Positions 7,451 to 16,554 of a stretch of 39,952 bases of DNA are shown here, one piece after another. The position numbers and the translations under genes were made by a program. The notes beneath the pieces were generated by a model that was given only the letters and a program-made list of their open reading frames with translations, was not told the DNA's origin and searched no databases. Origin of the DNA: Allomuricauda sp. (GTDB taxonomy: Bacteria; Bacteroidota; Bacteroidia; Flavobacteriales; Flavobacteriaceae); the NCBI GenBank assembly GCA_030148305.1, contig JASBTS010000228.1, positions 1-39,952 on the forward strand, given 5' to 3'. Numbering within the stretch: the first letter of the stretch is position 1; the number at the start of each line of letters is the position of its first letter.

Positions 7451-8095
7451 TTATTGAATCAATCCCCAGTCCACGGCTTTCTTGATCATCCCAACGGAGT
7501 TTTTCACATCCATTTTTACAAAGAGGTTGCGTTTGTGGGTCACTACCGTATTGGTGCTTACAAATAAAAGATCGGCAATTTCCTGTGTGGTATGTTCCTT
7601 GGCAATCAATTTAATCACTTCTATTTCCCGTTTGGTAATCATGGGAATGGAACCCTCCTTTGGTTTGGGTTCTTCGGTGAGACTCTCGATCATTTTAGCG
7701 GTTAAATGGGAACTGATGACCTTTTTGCCTTCATGGGCATCCTTTATTCCTTGGATGAGGTATTCCTTGGAGGCATTTTTGAGCAAATACCCATTGGCCC
7801 CTATTTTGAACAGGGAGGTGATGATGCTGCCTTCGTCATTGGTGGTGAGCATGATCACTTTTACTTCCGGGTATGATTTTTTTACATGCATGGTGGTTTC
7901 CAGCCCATCCATTACCGGCATTTGAAGATCAAGCAGCAAGACATCCACAGGTTCTTTTTTGAGAAACTCCAGAACTTCAAGACCATTACTGGCCGTACCT
8001 ACAATGCTCAGTTCCCTGTCTTTTGCAAATATGGCCTTTAAACCATCCAACATGATTTGGTGGTCATCCGCTAGCAATACCTTGATCTTTTCCAT
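7451..8095 (-). CDS. NarL/FixJ-type response regulator (REC + LuxR HTH)
   Basis: KVLLADDHQIMLDGLKAIF, DVLLLDLQMPVMDG, and ITKREIEVIKLIAKEHTTQEIADLLFVSTNTVVTHKRNLF. Confidence 0.93.
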   Translation of the reverse strand: MEKIKVLLADDHQIMLDGLKAIFAKDRELSIVGTASNGLEVLEFLKKEPVDVLLLDLQMPVMDGLETTMHVKKSYPEVKVIMLTTNDEGSIITSLFKIGANGYLLKNASKEYLIQGIKDAHEGKKVISSHLTAKMIESLTEEPKPKEGSIPMITKREIEVIKLIAKEHTTQEIADLLFVSTNTVVTHKRNLFVKMDVKNSVGMIKKAVDWGLIQ

Positions 8096-8115: not shown

Positions 8116-10029
8116 CTAAGTATTGTGCTTTTTGTTTAATGGAATGTTTATGGTTACCAATGTTCCCATGCCTTCTCGGCTGTTGATGTCGAAAGTGCCC
8201 CCAATAAATTCTGTCCTGAACGCGATGCTTTTCAATCCCATACCTTTATCCGCTTTTAGGCTATTGGGGTCAAAACCGACGCCATCGTCCTCAATGGTAA
8301 GGTCAAACCAGTCATCGCTATAGGTAATCTGCACCAATACTTCCTTTGCATCGGCATACTTTACAATGTTGTTCAAAGATTCTTGTACAATCCTGAAAAT
8401 CATGATATTGGTATTGTCATCAAATACCTTCTCCGTGCCATGTACCTGAAATTCGGCATGGAAAGGATGAATGGCATCCATTTTTTTCACCAAGTCCTCA
8501 ATGGCTTTTCTCAATCCCAGTTTCTTTAGGGACTGCGGCATCATTTCGTGGGCGATCTTTCGGACTTCGGTGCAGGCCTCATCGATCATTTGACTGGCGG
8601 AAACATATATTTTTTTGGAATTGTTGTCATCAAAATTGATCTGCAAACTTCCGATGTTCACTTTTAAACTCGATAACAGATTCCCCAATCCATCATGTAG
8701 GTCCCTAGCAATTCGGGTGCGTTCCTTTTCTTGCCCTTCCAACATGGAGCGCATGGAAACGATCTGCTGCTCCCGCTGTGCCTCGTGCAGCTCCAGCTTG
8801 GCGGTATTCATCCTGTTTTTATAATATAAAAAACCGACTAATGTAATCAACAAGAGTCCTCCCAAAGAGAATAGCAACATGTTCACGTGATCTTGTTTTT
8901 TTTGGTTCAATACTTCTTCTTCCAGCAATTGGATCTTTAATTGATCCTTTTCAAATTTTATCTTCATGTCGGCCAGGGCCTCAATACTGCTTTCACTCAG
9001 TTTATATTCTTCCTCCATTTGCTTTTGCTTTAGGAGAAGGTCATAGGCGGCCTTATAATTCTTGTTCATTAAAAATTGTTCCCGCCTCACATCCATGATG
9101 TAATTCTTTAGTCCGATCCTGTCATCAAGCCCAGGAGTTTGCTCTGCTTTTTGGATTATATCATTTGAACTTAAGAAGCCATATTCTTTGATCAAATCCG
9201 AAATAGCAGCGGTGTCTATTTTTTTTTGCGCCGCTTCATACATCATGGAAACAATACTCATCATGGATTCCACAACACCAACATCCTCTGCATCTTTTCG
9301 GTGTTCATATCCTTTTAAGTAGTTGGTTGCTGCCGATTCCAGGTTACCGTTCATCTTATGGCATTCTCCCAAACCTTGATAGAGCCTCGCAATCTCTACA
9401 TGGGCAACAGGAATTTCCGTCAACCTATATTCCAAAGCTTCCTGATATTTCTTTAATCCTTCTTCGGCATTCCCAGAAGTGTATTCCGCAACGGCCCAAT
9501 TGTTCAATATGCCTGCTTTCCGTTCCTCGTTGGGTATCTGGGCGAAGTAATCATACGCTTTTTTGAAGGCCATCTTTGAATCTTCCAAAGAGCCATAGGT
9601 TAATAGGATTACCCCCCGCGTATCATAAACATTCCCTAATCCGTACAAGTCCTTGATTTGGAAAAAATAGACTGAAGCACTATCCAAATAAGCCGTCTTT
9701 TTCTCCATTTCGTCAAAACCTGTGCACCAGCCCAACCGGTGAAACGACTTTCCAATAAGTCTAGGGCTACCCAATTTTTTGGCCAAGGCCAAACCAGATT
9801 TTGACTGCTGCACCGCCTCTTCACCATCATACAACAGATATGCGATTCTTAAATGAGTTTCACATTTAAGGGAGTCATCCGGCATGTTAATGACCACTGC
9901 CCGCAGACTATCCAATTCCTGCGATTGTCCAAGGACCATCTCGCTGCCCAGTAGCACGAAAAGAATCAATAATCGTGTACTTCGGATGGCAATCTTGTAT
10001 TTGGATGGAATAATATCCTCCACAGACAT
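8116..10029 (-). CDS. TPR sensor histidine kinase (HisKA_3 type), cognate to the adjacent response regulator
   Basis: TPR-rich N-terminus, one TM, ERTRIARDLHDGLGNLLSSLK (HisKA_3 H-box), HATPase DDGVGFDPNSLKADKGMGLKSI. Confidence 0.92.
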   Translation of the reverse strand: MSVEDIIPSKYKIAIRSTRLLILFVLLGSEMVLGQSQELDSLRAVVINMPDDSLKCETHLRIAYLLYDGEEAVQQSKSGLALAKKLGSPRLIGKSFHRLGWCTGFDEMEKKTAYLDSASVYFFQIKDLYGLGNVYDTRGVILLTYGSLEDSKMAFKKAYDYFAQIPNEERKAGILNNWAVAEYTSGNAEEGLKKYQEALEYRLTEIPVAHVEIARLYQGLGECHKMNGNLESAATNYLKGYEHRKDAEDVGVVESMMSIVSMMYEAAQKKIDTAAISDLIKEYGFLSSNDIIQKAEQTPGLDDRIGLKNYIMDVRREQFLMNKNYKAAYDLLLKQKQMEEEYKLSESSIEALADMKIKFEKDQLKIQLLEEEVLNQKKQDHVNMLLFSLGGLLLITLVGFLYYKNRMNTAKLELHEAQREQQIVSMRSMLEGQEKERTRIARDLHDGLGNLLSSLKVNIGSLQINFDDNNSKKIYVSASQMIDEACTEVRKIAHEMMPQSLKKLGLRKAIEDLVKKMDAIHPFHAEFQVHGTEKVFDDNTNIMIFRIVQESLNNIVKYADAKEVLVQITYSDDWFDLTIEDDGVGFDPNSLKADKGMGLKSIAFRTEFIGGTFDINSREGMGTLVTINIPLNKKHNT

Positions 10030-10112: not shown

Positions 10113-11606
10113 ATGATTATCAATATCACACAATTGTGTGATGCTGGATACAACAATAGGATGATTTTTAAAAATCATAGAATAGGGTGTAAAATAGCCG
10201 AAAGTGTGGTTCTAACTTTGGCACTATCGATGAGCAGAAAAAATAACCTCTTTAATTCCAAAGCAATGACCAATAAGATTACGTATGCCGCAATTAATAG
10301 ACAGGTTGAATCTAATTCCACCACCGATTCGTTGTTGGATATATCGATCAAGAACAAAATACCACATTTGCACGAATGTGGGGGTAACGGGGTGTGTACT
10401 ACTTGTAGGGTAAGGGTGCTGGAAGGCATTCAAAACCTAACCCCTAAGACCCAATACGAAAATGCGAGCTGTAATGCCAGACAATGGGATCCCTCCATTC
10501 GCTTGGCCTGCCAGGCTCGTCCGAAGGGAGATGTGACCATTCAGAGGTTGATCTGGTCCAGCGGCGAGGTCAATACGCTACAAAAAGAATTGGTCCCAAC
10601 AGGATTAGCGGAGGAAAGACCGATTGCTATATTATTCTGCGACCTTAGGAATTTTACCAACCTATCTTCCAACAACTTGAATTTTGACATCGCCTATATG
10701 TTGAACAAGTTCTATACCGCATTGGGTGAACCCATTTTAATGAACAACGGCATCATCTATCAATATGTAGGGGATGAAATTATAGGAGTTTTTGGCACCA
10801 CTGGTGGAACCGCCCAAAAAAATTGTGAGGATGCCATCCGAGCCGCTTTGGGCATGCAATACGCTTTGGAGTTTTTGAACCGTTCCGATTTAAAAGATAT
10901 TGGTGTGAAATTGAAATCGGGGATCGGCATCAATTTCGGGAATGCATTCATTGGTCATTTGGGTCATCCTACCCATAAGCAGTTTTCGGTAATCGGGGAT
11001 CCGGTAAATGTGGCCAGTAGGATACAAAATGAGACTAAGGTTACTAATACCGACATCCTAATTTCCGATACCGTATTTGAGAATATTAACAAGGAAACTG
11101 TTGTAGTCGGAAAAAATTTCCTCAACAAATTGGCGGGGAAAGACGATCCCTTAAGCTTGTATGAATTGATCGGGTTCAATGACATGGACCTTCAGTTGGA
11201 ACTCCAGTCTTCCATGAACATTATGCTGGCCGATGAGGAGGGATTTGCAAAAGTCTTTTATGATAAAGTTTTTGCCCTGGCTCCTTTTGTGAGGCAGTTG
11301 TTCAAGAGCAATATGGCCGATCAAGGCAGGTTGCTCACCCATATGTTGGGCGGAATTGTTTATTCCCTTTCCCGACCCGAGCACCTTAAAAAAGGGTTGA
11401 TGAAATTAGGTCAAAGCCATGTTCAATATGGGGTGAAAGAAGAGTATTATCCAGTGGTAAAGCAAGCCATGATGGAAACCATTGAAGAGGTAATGGGTGA
11501 AAATGGTACCTCCCAATGCCTTAAAGCATGGAACGCCGCCCTTGATTTTGTGATAGATACCATGAAATCCAGTGCAAGGCCCAATGTTGAACATGTTTAT
11601 GCTTAA
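10113..11606 (+). CDS. 2Fe-2S ferredoxin / class III nucleotidyl cyclase / globin fusion protein (true start may be 10230 or 10266)
   Basis: HECGGNGVCTTCRVRV...RLACQ (Cx5Cx2C...C 2Fe-2S ligands); cyclase FCDLRNFTNLS, YQYVGDEIIGVFG, VIGDPVNVASRIQ; C-terminal globin VFYDKVF...LGQSHVQYGVKEEYYPVVKQAMMETIEEVMG...AWNAALDFV, which aligns by eye with flavohaemoglobin globin domains. Confidence 0.88.
   Translation: MIINITQLCDAGYNNRMIFKNHRIGCKIAESVVLTLALSMSRKNNLFNSKAMTNKITYAAINRQVESNSTTDSLLDISIKNKIPHLHECGGNGVCTTCRVRVLEGIQNLTPKTQYENASCNARQWDPSIRLACQARPKGDVTIQRLIWSSGEVNTLQKELVPTGLAEERPIAILFCDLRNFTNLSSNNLNFDIAYMLNKFYTALGEPILMNNGIIYQYVGDEIIGVFGTTGGTAQKNCEDAIRAALGMQYALEFLNRSDLKDIGVKLKSGIGINFGNAFIGHLGHPTHKQFSVIGDPVNVASRIQNETKVTNTDILISDTVFENINKETVVVGKNFLNKLAGKDDPLSLYELIGFNDMDLQLELQSSMNIMLADEEGFAKVFYDKVFALAPFVRQLFKSNMADQGRLLTHMLGGIVYSLSRPEHLKKGLMKLGQSHVQYGVKEEYYPVVKQAMMETIEEVMGENGTSQCLKAWNAALDFVIDTMKSSARPNVEHVYA
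10125..10142. promoter_or_regulatory. Perfect 18-bp palindrome ATCACACAATTGTGTGAT
   Basis: Sequence equals its own reverse complement; lies between the divergent histidine kinase and cyclase genes. Confidence 0.55.
10161..10178. promoter_or_regulatory. Perfect 18-bp palindrome ATGATTTTTAAAAATCAT
   Basis: Sequence equals its own reverse complement; centre is 36 bp from the centre of the first palindrome. Confidence 0.5.
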
Positions 11607-11621
11607 TGAATTTCATAGCTG

Positions 11622-12209
11622 ATGTATAAAAACCACAAAAAAAGAGTGCCCAACTTTCAAAATGAACTCCTTAAAAGCATTGAGACAAGGGGTCATGCGG
11701 AAGAGCTTGTGGACCACTATTGGGGTAGCATCAACTATGTGCTGGGATTAATCAGAGCCTCCGAAATAAAGGCAGGTTTGTTACTTTCCTTCTACGGGAT
11801 CCTTATCAATTTTATCTTTCAAAAAATAGATTTGATCATTTCTGAAGGACCACAACAATTCATGCTCTACATTCTTTTAGGTTTTTGGTTCCTATCCACG
11901 GTGGTGTCCATCTATTACAGTATCCGGTGCTTTATGCCCTCTATTGAAGGCAAGTTTGAGAAGAATGTCTTCTTTTACGCAGATGTCATCACCAAATTTG
12001 GAACGATCAATGACTTTTCAAAAACCTTTTACAAATTAAGTTTGAAGGAGGAGGAATTGTTTGACCAGTTGGGACAACAGATTTTTATCATCTCAAAAAT
12101 CGCAGACCAAAAATTTCGATGCGTCAATAAATCGTTACGTTTTTTGGCCATAGGTCTTCTCTTGTTTTTGCTAGTGGTGATCGTGTATACCATTCATGTA
12201 ATTTTATGA
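11622..12209 (+). CDS. PycTM/DUF5706-like Pycsar effector-type membrane protein
   Basis: IRASEIKAGLLLSFYGILINFIF then a second TM helix, FFYADVITKFGTINDFSKTF...EELFDQLGQQIFIISKIADQKFRCVNKSLRFLAIGLLLFLL: the layout and motifs of PycTM proteins. Directly follows a nucleotidyl cyclase. Confidence 0.75.
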   Translation: MYKNHKKRVPNFQNELLKSIETRGHAEELVDHYWGSINYVLGLIRASEIKAGLLLSFYGILINFIFQKIDLIISEGPQQFMLYILLGFWFLSTVVSIYYSIRCFMPSIEGKFEKNVFFYADVITKFGTINDFSKTFYKLSLKEEELFDQLGQQIFIISKIADQKFRCVNKSLRFLAIGLLLFLLVVIVYTIHVIL

Positions 12210-13487: not shown

Positions 13488-13638
13488 AGGTTTCATATGC
13501 TTGAGCTTTGGCGCCCGCCGAAATAATCCGATGTAAGGTGTTTCAGCGTAAAAACATCAGATTATCATCTAAATTATCGGTTTATAAATACCTTTATATA
13601 GGTTGAAATCATTCCCATTGTATAAAGAATCTTTTAGG

Positions 13639-16554
13639 ATGAAATTGAAATTTGCTTTTCGGGTACCACTTCTTCTCTTCTCATTGGCCGTACTTCAGGT
13701 TGCGGCACAAAAAAAAGAGACTGCACAGATATCAACTTTAATACAAAATCTAAAAAAGGACATCCGCGGCCCATACAAGGACATTCGATGGTTCTGTACC
13801 GATGGAAGTATTCGTGCCCCAAAAGATCCCTGTCCAGATGAAATTGGACCAGGTGTGCAGCATGCCCGTTATAAGGATGAGGTAGAAGCCTTGGGCAAGG
13901 CCAATCACATCTATTTGGGCCAGATTTTGGCATACACCGATCAAGAACCTTTTTGGGATGCGGCCAATGACCATTCCCGATTGAAGCAATATCAACTTGA
14001 TAAATATTTAAGAAGTGTAGACAACGGTTGGATCAATCAAAAGGGACAATACTATCGTGGTGCCATCCAGTCCGAAGATGAGGAAGCATGGGGCATCGAA
14101 TTCTACAAATGGGTTTTGGCGAATGATGAGTTCCTAAAGAATGAATTTTTCTTGGTTCGCCAGTCATTGAAGGATATTCCACATAATGGGGACGACAATG
14201 TGGCCCAGAAAATGCGGAGTGAATCCAAGGTCATTTCCGACCTGTATGAACCCTTCATGGATCTTAGAACGAAAATCCACAGTCAACCTGAAGATAGTGA
14301 TATCCAAAAAGTGCTTCAATTCAAGCAAAAACATAGCACCAAGTTAACAACGGATCTGTCCAAAAAATTGGACGAACTGGTGGCCACCATGAGGGAATTC
14401 CACAAACCAGTGGATATTACCTCTTTGCCCAAAAGGGCCTCGCTCACAAAAGGTACTCCTTTGGGAAAGGCCATCGAAAGCTTTGCTTCCAACAAGGAGT
14501 TAATGGGTAATCCCAAACTGTTGATGGAACAGGCTTCACAGCTATTGTTCGATATCAGGAACGGACTTTTGGAGGAAAAGCGACCCATGGCCAGATTGCA
14601 ATTGCTCGATATTTCCTTAAAATTGGAAGAGATTGTTTTCAAAAGCTCACCCGATTACCAGCCTGAAAACTTAAAGGAACTGCTGCATAAAATCTGCTAT
14701 TTAGGAATGGCCGTTACAGGTTCAGGGTACTTGGAGCAATGGGAGTGGGGACAATTGGCTAGCAACCTTACCAATTACGAAGCAGACGAACGCTCCCTGG
14801 GCGAATTGACCGAAGTGTTGAACCGAGCCCGTTCCGCAGTGGAATGGAGTGCGGCCATGGTAAAGGCCAATTATGATGCGATCGTGAAGGAATATGTTGC
14901 TTTTGAGCCGCTTACCGCGGGTTTTGTGGACGACAAGATCAGAGGTTCTGTTGCTTTACATTTGGGCCAAAGTGTCGGGGAATTGGGCAATCTCATTTCT
15001 GCTGAATCCCAATTGGCCAATAAAGTGATGGATATCCAAAACCAGAGTACTATACGCGGTCTGAATCCTGGCTATGCCTTTGGGGAATTGGTCGTAGTAG
15101 GTGGCAGTTCGGATGATATTGAGGTGTCTTCGGACAAGATCTACGTGTTCCAACGGCCCCCATCCGATTTAAAGCCCGTTGCAGGTATTGCCACGGTTGC
15201 CGAAGGCAATATGGTTTCCCACGTGCAATTGTTGGCCCGTAATCTCGGAATCCCGAATGCGGCATTGTCGGACCAAAACCTTCAAGACCTTAAAAAGTAT
15301 GATGGCTCAAGGGTGTTTTATGCCGTTTCCAATAAAGGGAATGTGATTTTGAAATCCGAAAGCCAAATGACCAAGGACGAATTGGCCCTTTTTGAAAAAA
15401 AGGAACGCAAAGAGGAACGCATCGAGGTACCCATTCAACAGATTCGTTTGGATGAAAACAAGGTGCTGAACATGCGGGATGTGGATGCCGATGATTCCGG
15501 AAAATTGTGTGGACCCAAAGCTGCCAACCTAGGCCAGCTTAAAAAAATGTTTCCCGAAAAAGTAGTGGAAGGTTTGGTGATTCCCTTCGGGATTTTCAGA
15601 ACACACATGGACCAAAAAATGCCCGATCAGGAAGGATCTTATTGGAATTTCCTCACCAAAATGTTCGAAGAGGCCAATCGCATGTTGGCATCCGGTATTT
15701 CCGATAAGGAAGTAGAAAATTATCAATTGCGCCAACTGGAAATTTTGAGGGATGCCATTAAAAAAATGCAGCTTAGGGATGATTTTATCAATCAATTGGA
15801 AACAGGTTTTAAAGACGTTTTGGGTTCTGAATTGGGTTCCGTTCCCGTGTTTCTGCGTAGCGACACCAATATGGAAGATTTAAAGGATTTTACCGGGGCC
15901 GGACTCAACCTGACCATTTTCAATTCGGTGGAAAGGGAAAAGATACTGGAAGGAATCAAGGATGTTTGGGCCTCTCCCTACACCGAACGCAGTTTCAAAT
16001 GGCGTCAAAAATACCTATTGAATCCCGAAAACGTGTTCCCGTCCATTTTGGTCATCCCTAGTGTGGATGTGGATTATTCTGGAGTGTTGATCACCAAGGG
16101 CATCAGTATGGGCACGGATAAGGACCTGACTGTGGCATTTAGCAGAGGTGCAGGCGGTGCTGTGGACGGACAAGCTGCTGAACAGTATCTCATCAAAGAT
16201 GAGGGCGGTTATGTTTTGTTGGCGCCCGCACGGGAACGTTTTTATAACGGACTGCCCAAAACCGGTGGCACCGAAAAGAAGAAAGCCACCTTTCAAGAGC
16301 GTGTGCTGAACGAACGCAATATCGATGAGATTAGAGGATTGGCCCATCAGATTCGGGAGCGCGTTCCGAAAGAAACGCATTCGGACTACCAAGGGGCCTA
16401 TGATGTAGAACTGGGTTTTAAGGACAACAAGCTTTGGCTGTTCCAGATCAGGCCTTTTGTGGAGAATAAAAAAGCGTTGGGTTCCACCTATCTGGAGTCC
16501 ATCACGCCAAAAATCGACCTGACCAAACGAATTTCACTTTCCAAAAAAATCTAG
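13639..16554 (+). CDS. Secreted PEP/pyruvate-binding dikinase-like protein (phosphohistidine swivel domain followed by PPDK_N ATP-grasp; GWD-like order)
   Basis: Signal peptide MKLKFAFRVPLLLFSLAVLQVAAQ; swivel motif GNMVSHVQLLARNLGIPNAAL; GPKAANLGQLKKMFPEKV; LRSDTNMEDLKDFTGAGLNLTI; AYDVELGFKDNKLWLFQIRPF. Confidence 0.82.
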   Translation: MKLKFAFRVPLLLFSLAVLQVAAQKKETAQISTLIQNLKKDIRGPYKDIRWFCTDGSIRAPKDPCPDEIGPGVQHARYKDEVEALGKANHIYLGQILAYTDQEPFWDAANDHSRLKQYQLDKYLRSVDNGWINQKGQYYRGAIQSEDEEAWGIEFYKWVLANDEFLKNEFFLVRQSLKDIPHNGDDNVAQKMRSESKVISDLYEPFMDLRTKIHSQPEDSDIQKVLQFKQKHSTKLTTDLSKKLDELVATMREFHKPVDITSLPKRASLTKGTPLGKAIESFASNKELMGNPKLLMEQASQLLFDIRNGLLEEKRPMARLQLLDISLKLEEIVFKSSPDYQPENLKELLHKICYLGMAVTGSGYLEQWEWGQLASNLTNYEADERSLGELTEVLNRARSAVEWSAAMVKANYDAIVKEYVAFEPLTAGFVDDKIRGSVALHLGQSVGELGNLISAESQLANKVMDIQNQSTIRGLNPGYAFGELVVVGGSSDDIEVSSDKIYVFQRPPSDLKPVAGIATVAEGNMVSHVQLLARNLGIPNAALSDQNLQDLKKYDGSRVFYAVSNKGNVILKSESQMTKDELALFEKKERKEERIEVPIQQIRLDENKVLNMRDVDADDSGKLCGPKAANLGQLKKMFPEKVVEGLVIPFGIFRTHMDQKMPDQEGSYWNFLTKMFEEANRMLASGISDKEVENYQLRQLEILRDAIKKMQLRDDFINQLETGFKDVLGSELGSVPVFLRSDTNMEDLKDFTGAGLNLTIFNSVEREKILEGIKDVWASPYTERSFKWRQKYLLNPENVFPSILVIPSVDVDYSGVLITKGISMGTDKDLTVAFSRGAGGAVDGQAAEQYLIKDEGGYVLLAPARERFYNGLPKTGGTEKKKATFQERVLNERNIDEIRGLAHQIRERVPKETHSDYQGAYDVELGFKDNKLWLFQIRPFVENKKALGSTYLESITPKIDLTKRISLSKKI

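Follow-up and report, generated by a model that had tools for sequence, protein, structure and literature searches.

A predicted soluble class III nucleotide cyclase flanked by ferredoxin and globin domains in Allomuricauda sp.

Three domains in a single reading frame

The locus described here raises the question of what controls a nucleotide cyclase whose catalytic domain lies between a [2Fe-2S] ferredoxin (Fer2) domain and a globin in the same polypeptide, and how its product might be read by the cell. The window, i.e., the whole 39,952-nucleotide stretch of Allomuricauda sp. DNA that was analysed, was originally predicted to encode these three domains in one chain at positions 10371 to 11585. 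Their occurrence in one chain is borne out by Pfam matches to Fer2, cyclase, and globin, each of which exceeds its own cut-off, in a single unbroken frame. The span was too short: the gene extends from an ATG at 10266 to position 11606, and the first 35 residues of the Fer2 fold precede position 10371. The open frame itself runs from 10113 to 11606; the ATG at 10113 was rejected as the start because conserved palindromes (detailed below) fall within the additional stretch and the extension is closed in the orthologue of locus L035, and the ATG at 10266 is the start common to the orthologues. The gene and its domains are as follows.

10266 to 11606, forward strand: Fer2-class III nucleotide cyclase-globin gene, 446 aa, stop codon included in the coordinates (Pfam; start set by orthologues)
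10296 to 10526, forward strand: [2Fe-2S] ferredoxin domain, residues 11 to 87 (PF00111, 2.7e-9; ligands C38, C44, C47, and C82)
10617 to 11102, forward strand: class III cyclase catalytic domain, residues 118 to 279 (PF00211, Guanylate_cyc, 6e-15; fold match 1wc1)
11256 to 11564, forward strand: C-terminal F-type globin, residues 331 to 433 (PF00042, 2.6e-12; Y332 at B10, F346 at CD1, Q353 at E7, and H385 at F8)

No membrane domain was recognized by Pfam in this protein, in which Fer2 begins at residue 11 of 446, and the product is probably a soluble, homodimeric cyclase. An AlphaFold model of the 446-aa protein, based on an alignment of 19 sequences, reached a mean pLDDT of 83.8 and a pTM of 0.70, the latter value leaving the relative placement of the domains uncertain. 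Public records label proteins of this architecture merely as cyclase-domain proteins, and a search of the literature available without subscription retrieved no paper on a Fer2/cyclase/globin fusion.

Distribution and conservation of the fusion

Full-length versions of the protein, at 55 to 82% identity, were found in 16 of 398 sampled genomes of the family, that of the window included, and the gene is rare in the phylum (4/396 genomes at E <= 1e-40). Its holders include Flagellimonas, Allomuricauda, Robiginitalea, Christiangramia, Eudoraea, Algoriphagus, Echinicola, and Agaribacillus; Chondrinema litorale carries a copy on a plasmid, and more distant homologues (38% identity) are encoded by Bradyrhizobium altum and B. 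oropedii. The assessment of conservation covered 36 full-length Bacteroidota and Bradyrhizobium homologues, the counts leaving out a Pseudomonadales metagenome-assembled genome (L097) in which Fer2 and cyclase-globin lie in different frames, probably owing to a sequencing frameshift. A chance or frame-shift origin of the fusion is excluded by the full-length orthologues (55 to 99% identical) in many genera and by the residues that are invariant in all 36 homologues. The invariance of both cofactor and catalytic residues further indicates that the fusion is old and that both cofactor sites are under selection, which constitutes strong sequence-based evidence that these sites and the active site are in use.

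A tree built on the Fer2-cyclase region united the three-domain proteins, including those of Bradyrhizobium, in one group (support of 0.87, or 1.00 for the Bacteroidota alone) beside the soluble Fer2-cyclases, with the membrane Fer2-cyclases grouped separately.

The ferredoxin domain

The nearest solved structure to the Fer2 domain by sequence is E. coli ferredoxin (1i7h, 7e-8). The ligand set of the predicted [2Fe-2S] cluster is complete, as had been claimed, with C38, C44, C47, and C82 being present in 36/36 three-domain proteins. The existence of soluble Fer2-cyclases without a globin in the same family (loci L018 to L020 and L133 to L136) implies that Fer2 precedes the globin and, with the globin as an added sensor, favours an alternative in which one cofactor domain alone would sense, most likely through the globin haem, and the [2Fe-2S] domain, inherited from Fer2-cyclases, would be structural or assembly-sensitive. 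However, the same four Cys residues are also invariant in the sampled membrane and soluble relatives, which suggests a working cluster, and we consider it unlikely that only one of the two domains is a sensor.

The cyclase domain and its product

The catalytic domain retains the metal-binding residues D126 and D170 and the transition-state residues N248 and R252 of a class III cyclase, the first three in all 36 homologues and R252 in 35 of them; the enzyme is, on this evidence, probably active. The cyclase dominated a structure search with the whole model, the matches including CyaC of Spirulina (1wc1; TM by target of 0.88) and Cya2 (2w01).

The base-selecting positions are less conventional. 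Alignment revealed Q166 and S241 in place of the Lys plus Asp/Thr pair of ATP-specific adenylate cyclases, a departure due to which a CyaC-like cAMP output is not assured. Other Bacteroidota homologues combine Q with S, A, or T, and the K/T pair is confined to those of Bradyrhizobium; CyaC-like membrane relatives carry K/T, and soluble Fer2-cyclases have D or E at the Q166 position. The mycobacterial cyclase Rv0386 has a Q-containing base-selecting pair and uses purines. Judged by its fold, the Allomuricauda enzyme would most likely produce a purine cyclic nucleotide.

The globin domain

Helices are predicted throughout the C-terminal third of the protein (residues 309-338, 340-345, 350-367, 371-387, 394-413, and 416-437), with pLDDT values of about 80 to 94 across residues 309 to 437, as a globin requires; we take these helices to represent globin helices A/B, C, E, F, G, and H. 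When folded alone and without an alignment, the domain gave a poor model (pLDDT 49), which in a structure search retrieved globins exclusively but with E values above 0.001, and this result was, therefore, dropped as proof. The haem-pocket residues named in the original prediction, i.e., the B10 Tyr, the CD1 Phe, and the F8 His, the last being correctly located at a CAT codon at 11418 to 11420, are invariant in 36/36 homologues, as are Q353 (E7) and Y395. The globin fold, together with this residue set, identifies the domain as an F-type globin that is predicted to bind haem.

The comparison with E. coli Hmp on which the original prediction drew holds in part: Hmp (1gvh) matches the full protein at 1.3e-4, but single-domain F-type globins are closer. 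The nearest solved relatives of the globin by sequence, with E values from 1.6e-15 to 3e-13, comprise 3wfw (1.6e-15), Hell's Gate globin I (3s1i, 4.4e-14), and thermoglobin (7dih); flavohaemoglobins are more distant (1cqx, 2.2e-9).

The flavohaemoglobin likeness nevertheless bears on a second alternative, in which the globin would be mainly a catalyst, acting as an NO dioxygenase or a haem reductant-sink, while the [2Fe-2S] domain, supplied by an external reductase, would stand in for the FAD/NAD domain found in Hmp, with the cyclase reporting turnover. The invariant B10 Tyr, E7 Gln, and post-F Tyr395, a set which matches flavohaemoglobin-type pockets, are in keeping with such a role, as is the NCBIfam model for NO-inducible flavohaemoprotein, which matches the globin at 7.3e-13 (score of 48 against a cut-off of 432), and the haem could be reduced by an electron carrier that belongs to its own chain. 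Pocket residues of this type, however, also occur in globins of other function; Pfam recognizes no FAD/NAD(P) reductase domain in the protein, and the window contains no neighbouring reductase gene. As the membrane relatives use haem with a Fer2-cyclase unit for sensing, a mainly catalytic globin appears improbable.

Divergent regulatory genes and putative operators

Upstream of the cyclase gene lies a divergently oriented two-component pair, separated from it by an intergenic region with two palindromes.

7451 to 8095, reverse strand: LuxR-type response regulator, partner of the kinase (open reading frame; the orthologue in L035 is Response_reg plus GerE)
8116 to 10029, reverse strand: divergent TPR sensor histidine kinase (HisKA_3/HATPase_c; Pfam)
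10125 to 10142, no strand: perfect 18-bp palindrome ATCACACAATTGTGTGAT, putative operator in the kinase-cyclase intergenic region
10161 to 10178, no strand: second perfect 18-bp palindrome ATGATTTTTAAAAATCAT, putative operator, its centre 36 bp from that of the first

The kinase/regulator/cyclase gene order is kept in Flagellimonas, Allomuricauda, Robiginitalea, and Algoriphagus. Both palindromes are conserved across genera, standing out in a seven-way alignment amid otherwise diverged intergenic DNA; the first precedes every kinase-linked orthologue examined and is the sole such site in its own genome when up to two mismatches are allowed. The neighbouring LuxR-type regulator is likely to bind these palindromes, through which the divergent pair probably controls expression of the cyclase gene.

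A PycTM-family gene downstream

Two features of the locus were absent from the original prediction: the non-canonical Q166/S241 pair described above and a membrane protein gene that begins 15 nt past the cyclase stop codon.

11622 to 12209, forward strand: PycTM-family membrane protein, 195 aa, probable effector (PF18967, 3.3e-13; PADLOC PycTM, 4.3e-28)

The encoded protein has three hydrophobic segments. Within the genus (73 genomes), the three-domain gene and this PycTM are each present in five genomes, and in the same five (the window and four congeners), an agreement that does not represent five independent events if, as may be the case, these genomes are close kin. PycTM in these pairs shows at least 77% identity and shares the strand of the three-domain gene, at a distance of about 19 nt to 1.6 kb; the two genes are separated by a berberine-bridge-type FAD oxidase gene in Flagellimonas amoyensis and Allomuricauda taeanensis. 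In Flagellimonas, Robiginitalea, and Algoriphagus (L035 6381-7772, L037 6370-7767, and L038 6263-7828), the conserved neighbour on the downstream side is an oxidase of this kind (FAD_binding_4/BBE), which is missing from the corresponding position in the window. Farther along the window, a 983-aa protein is encoded at 13603 to 16554, in which Pfam recognizes a C-terminal PPDK_N domain only.

Outside the genus, PycTM was absent near the three-domain gene in every locus examined; it cannot, therefore, be the general output of these cyclases, and its candidacy as their universal partner was rejected. For this genus, the chance that PycTM is the output of the cyclase is close to even. Across the wider family, a class III cyclase is located within 3 kb of a close PycTM homologue in 33 of 36 genomes, 27 of these 33 pairs being on the same strand and within 1 kb, such that PycTM beside a sensor-bearing cyclase is the rule. 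Most of these partners are REC-cyclases, about 350 aa long, that carry a canonical K/T pair; GAF-cyclases also occur among them. The regular position of Flavobacteriaceae PycTM genes beside response-regulator, GAF, and Fer2-globin cyclases suggests that, besides its part in phage defence, the PycTM family serves in ordinary signalling.

The PycTM gene 15 nt away, together with matches of PADLOC PycC models to the cyclase (best, 6.8e-19), could instead denote a Pycsar-type anti-phage system whose cyclase has gained extra domains. The PycC matches were rejected as proof of this, since the same models match ordinary class III cyclases equally well or better, among them an unrelated REC-cyclase (3.2e-27) and a membrane Fer2-cyclase (5.4e-26), and thus do not discriminate. 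The fold, furthermore, is nearer to CyaC and Cya2 than to the cUMP synthase 7r65, which ranks only 50th and far behind them; most three-domain orthologues have no PycTM nearby; the pairing of PycTM in the family with two-component REC-cyclases that keep K/T points to general signalling; and the flanking genes in relatives are chromosomal (an era-like GTPase and an alanine symporter). A Pycsar-type defence role is, on this evidence, very improbable.

Gene neighbourhoods in relatives

The Bradyrhizobium altum homologue follows cydA and cydB as the third gene, with 24 nt separating it from cydB (L053 2575-6344; likewise in L054), and is situated between an NDH-2-type dehydrogenase gene (ndh-2) and fixN/fixP-type cbb3 oxidase genes, a context seen in two related Bradyrhizobium genomes only. 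A pyruvate:ferredoxin oxidoreductase gene directly precedes the three-domain gene in Seonamhaeicola, and OsmC genes adjoin it in Christiangramia and Seonamhaeicola. These neighbours agree with oxygen or redox control of the cyclase.

Other arrangements were also observed. In one genome (G376; L006 376-1452), the three-domain gene is arranged end to end with a second class III cyclase gene, whose response-regulator region is partial, and in Agaribacillus and Chondrinema an O-acetylhomoserine sulfhydrylase-type gene is located divergently upstream (L050 3399-4724 and L148 4378-5688, respectively).

Proposed mode of action

The protein is proposed to be a cytosolic, gas- and redox-controlled class III cyclase that represents a counterpart of CyaC and that, in this genus, probably signals through PycTM, an account which we hold with moderate confidence. 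The cyclase would work as a homodimer whose catalytic core is preceded by a [2Fe-2S] ferredoxin and followed by an F-type haem globin, and its rate would be set by the haem, through either its ligand (O2 or NO) or its oxidation state, together with the redox state of the cluster. In this genus, the product of the adjacent downstream gene, the PycTM membrane protein, would read the resulting cyclic nucleotide, while the kinase/LuxR regulator pair would govern expression of the cyclase gene through the two palindromes. The parallel with CyaC lies in the reporting of respiratory redox state by haem b and a [2Fe-2S] cluster to a similar catalytic domain, the globin here presumably replacing the membrane haem.

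The dual redox/gas gating of the original prediction fits an architecture in which two cofactor domains flank a probably active cyclase, and control of the cyclase by its cofactors appears likely; the gating itself is a reading of that architecture, to which the known behaviour of CyaC (PMC10463352) and the respiratory context of the Bradyrhizobium homologue lend support. Direct electron transfer between the cluster and the globin haem, which had also been raised, is doubtful. Similarly speculative, if slightly less so, is a broader scheme in which electrons would pass between the [2Fe-2S] cluster and the haem across the cyclase, O2/NO and redox signals would be integrated, and PycTM would be driven in physiology rather than phage defence. 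If this were true, Flavobacteriaceae would have in PycTM a general membrane effector operated by cyclic nucleotides, and Pycsar would form one branch of it.

Comparison with known systems

The closest functional parallel is CyaC of Sinorhizobium meliloti, which contains two haem b groups along with a [2Fe-2S] cluster and whose activity follows the redox state of quinones (PMC10463352). Its membrane relatives, in which a ferredoxin and a cyclase are joined to a cytochrome-b-like anchor, have been predicted to be haem proteins (PMC4821796). As in CyaC and the other membrane Fer2-cyclases, with which its Fer2-cyclase region aligns at 30 to 36% identity, the three-domain protein has a class III cyclase immediately preceded by a [2Fe-2S] ferredoxin and, in the same chain, a predicted haem. 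CyaC, however, possesses a six-transmembrane diheme-b anchor with four haem-ligating His residues and a K/T pair, whereas the three-domain protein is predicted to be soluble, without an anchor, and to carry globin haem and a Q/S pair. It is thus a protein that would work like CyaC and yet lies outside the CyaC membrane family, being without the six-transmembrane haem anchor. The soluble Fer2-cyclases of Flavobacteriaceae (about 306 to 337 aa), its sister group in the tree, share the order of Fer2 and class III cyclase but have no globin and differ at the Q166 position, as described above.

The globin sequence and pocket residues resemble those of Hmp, Hell's Gate globin I, and Vitreoscilla haemoglobin; Hmp carries a C-terminal FAD/NAD reductase, whereas here the globin is fused to Fer2 and a cyclase. 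A globin and a signalling output enzyme are also joined in one chain in globin-coupled sensors, which include Leishmania HemAC. The globin of such sensors, however, is N-terminal and of the S family (PMC1457004), whereas that of the three-domain protein lies at the C-terminus and matches PF00042 as well as F-type structures.

The succession of a class III cyclase gene and a PycTM-family membrane gene, in the window and four congeners, is shared with Pycsar (PycC plus PycTM). The locus differs from Pycsar in the sensor domains of its cyclase and in the absence of PycTM beside most orthologues; no pyrimidine-specific feature was recognized, and F124/Q166/V168, in a register set by our own motif count, does not match the published PycC clade B, D, or E sets (PMC11224242).

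Set against these systems, the fusion looks like a soluble gas/redox messenger switch absent from the papers searched, bringing together the proposed functions of gas sensing, Fe-S redox sensing, and cyclic-nucleotide synthesis in a soluble chain of 446 residues. Such a soluble and likely tractable protein would allow haem/[2Fe-2S]/cyclase coupling to be measured without membranes, and an ordinary signalling role in Flavobacteriaceae for proteins now named Pycsar effectors represents a testable wider point.
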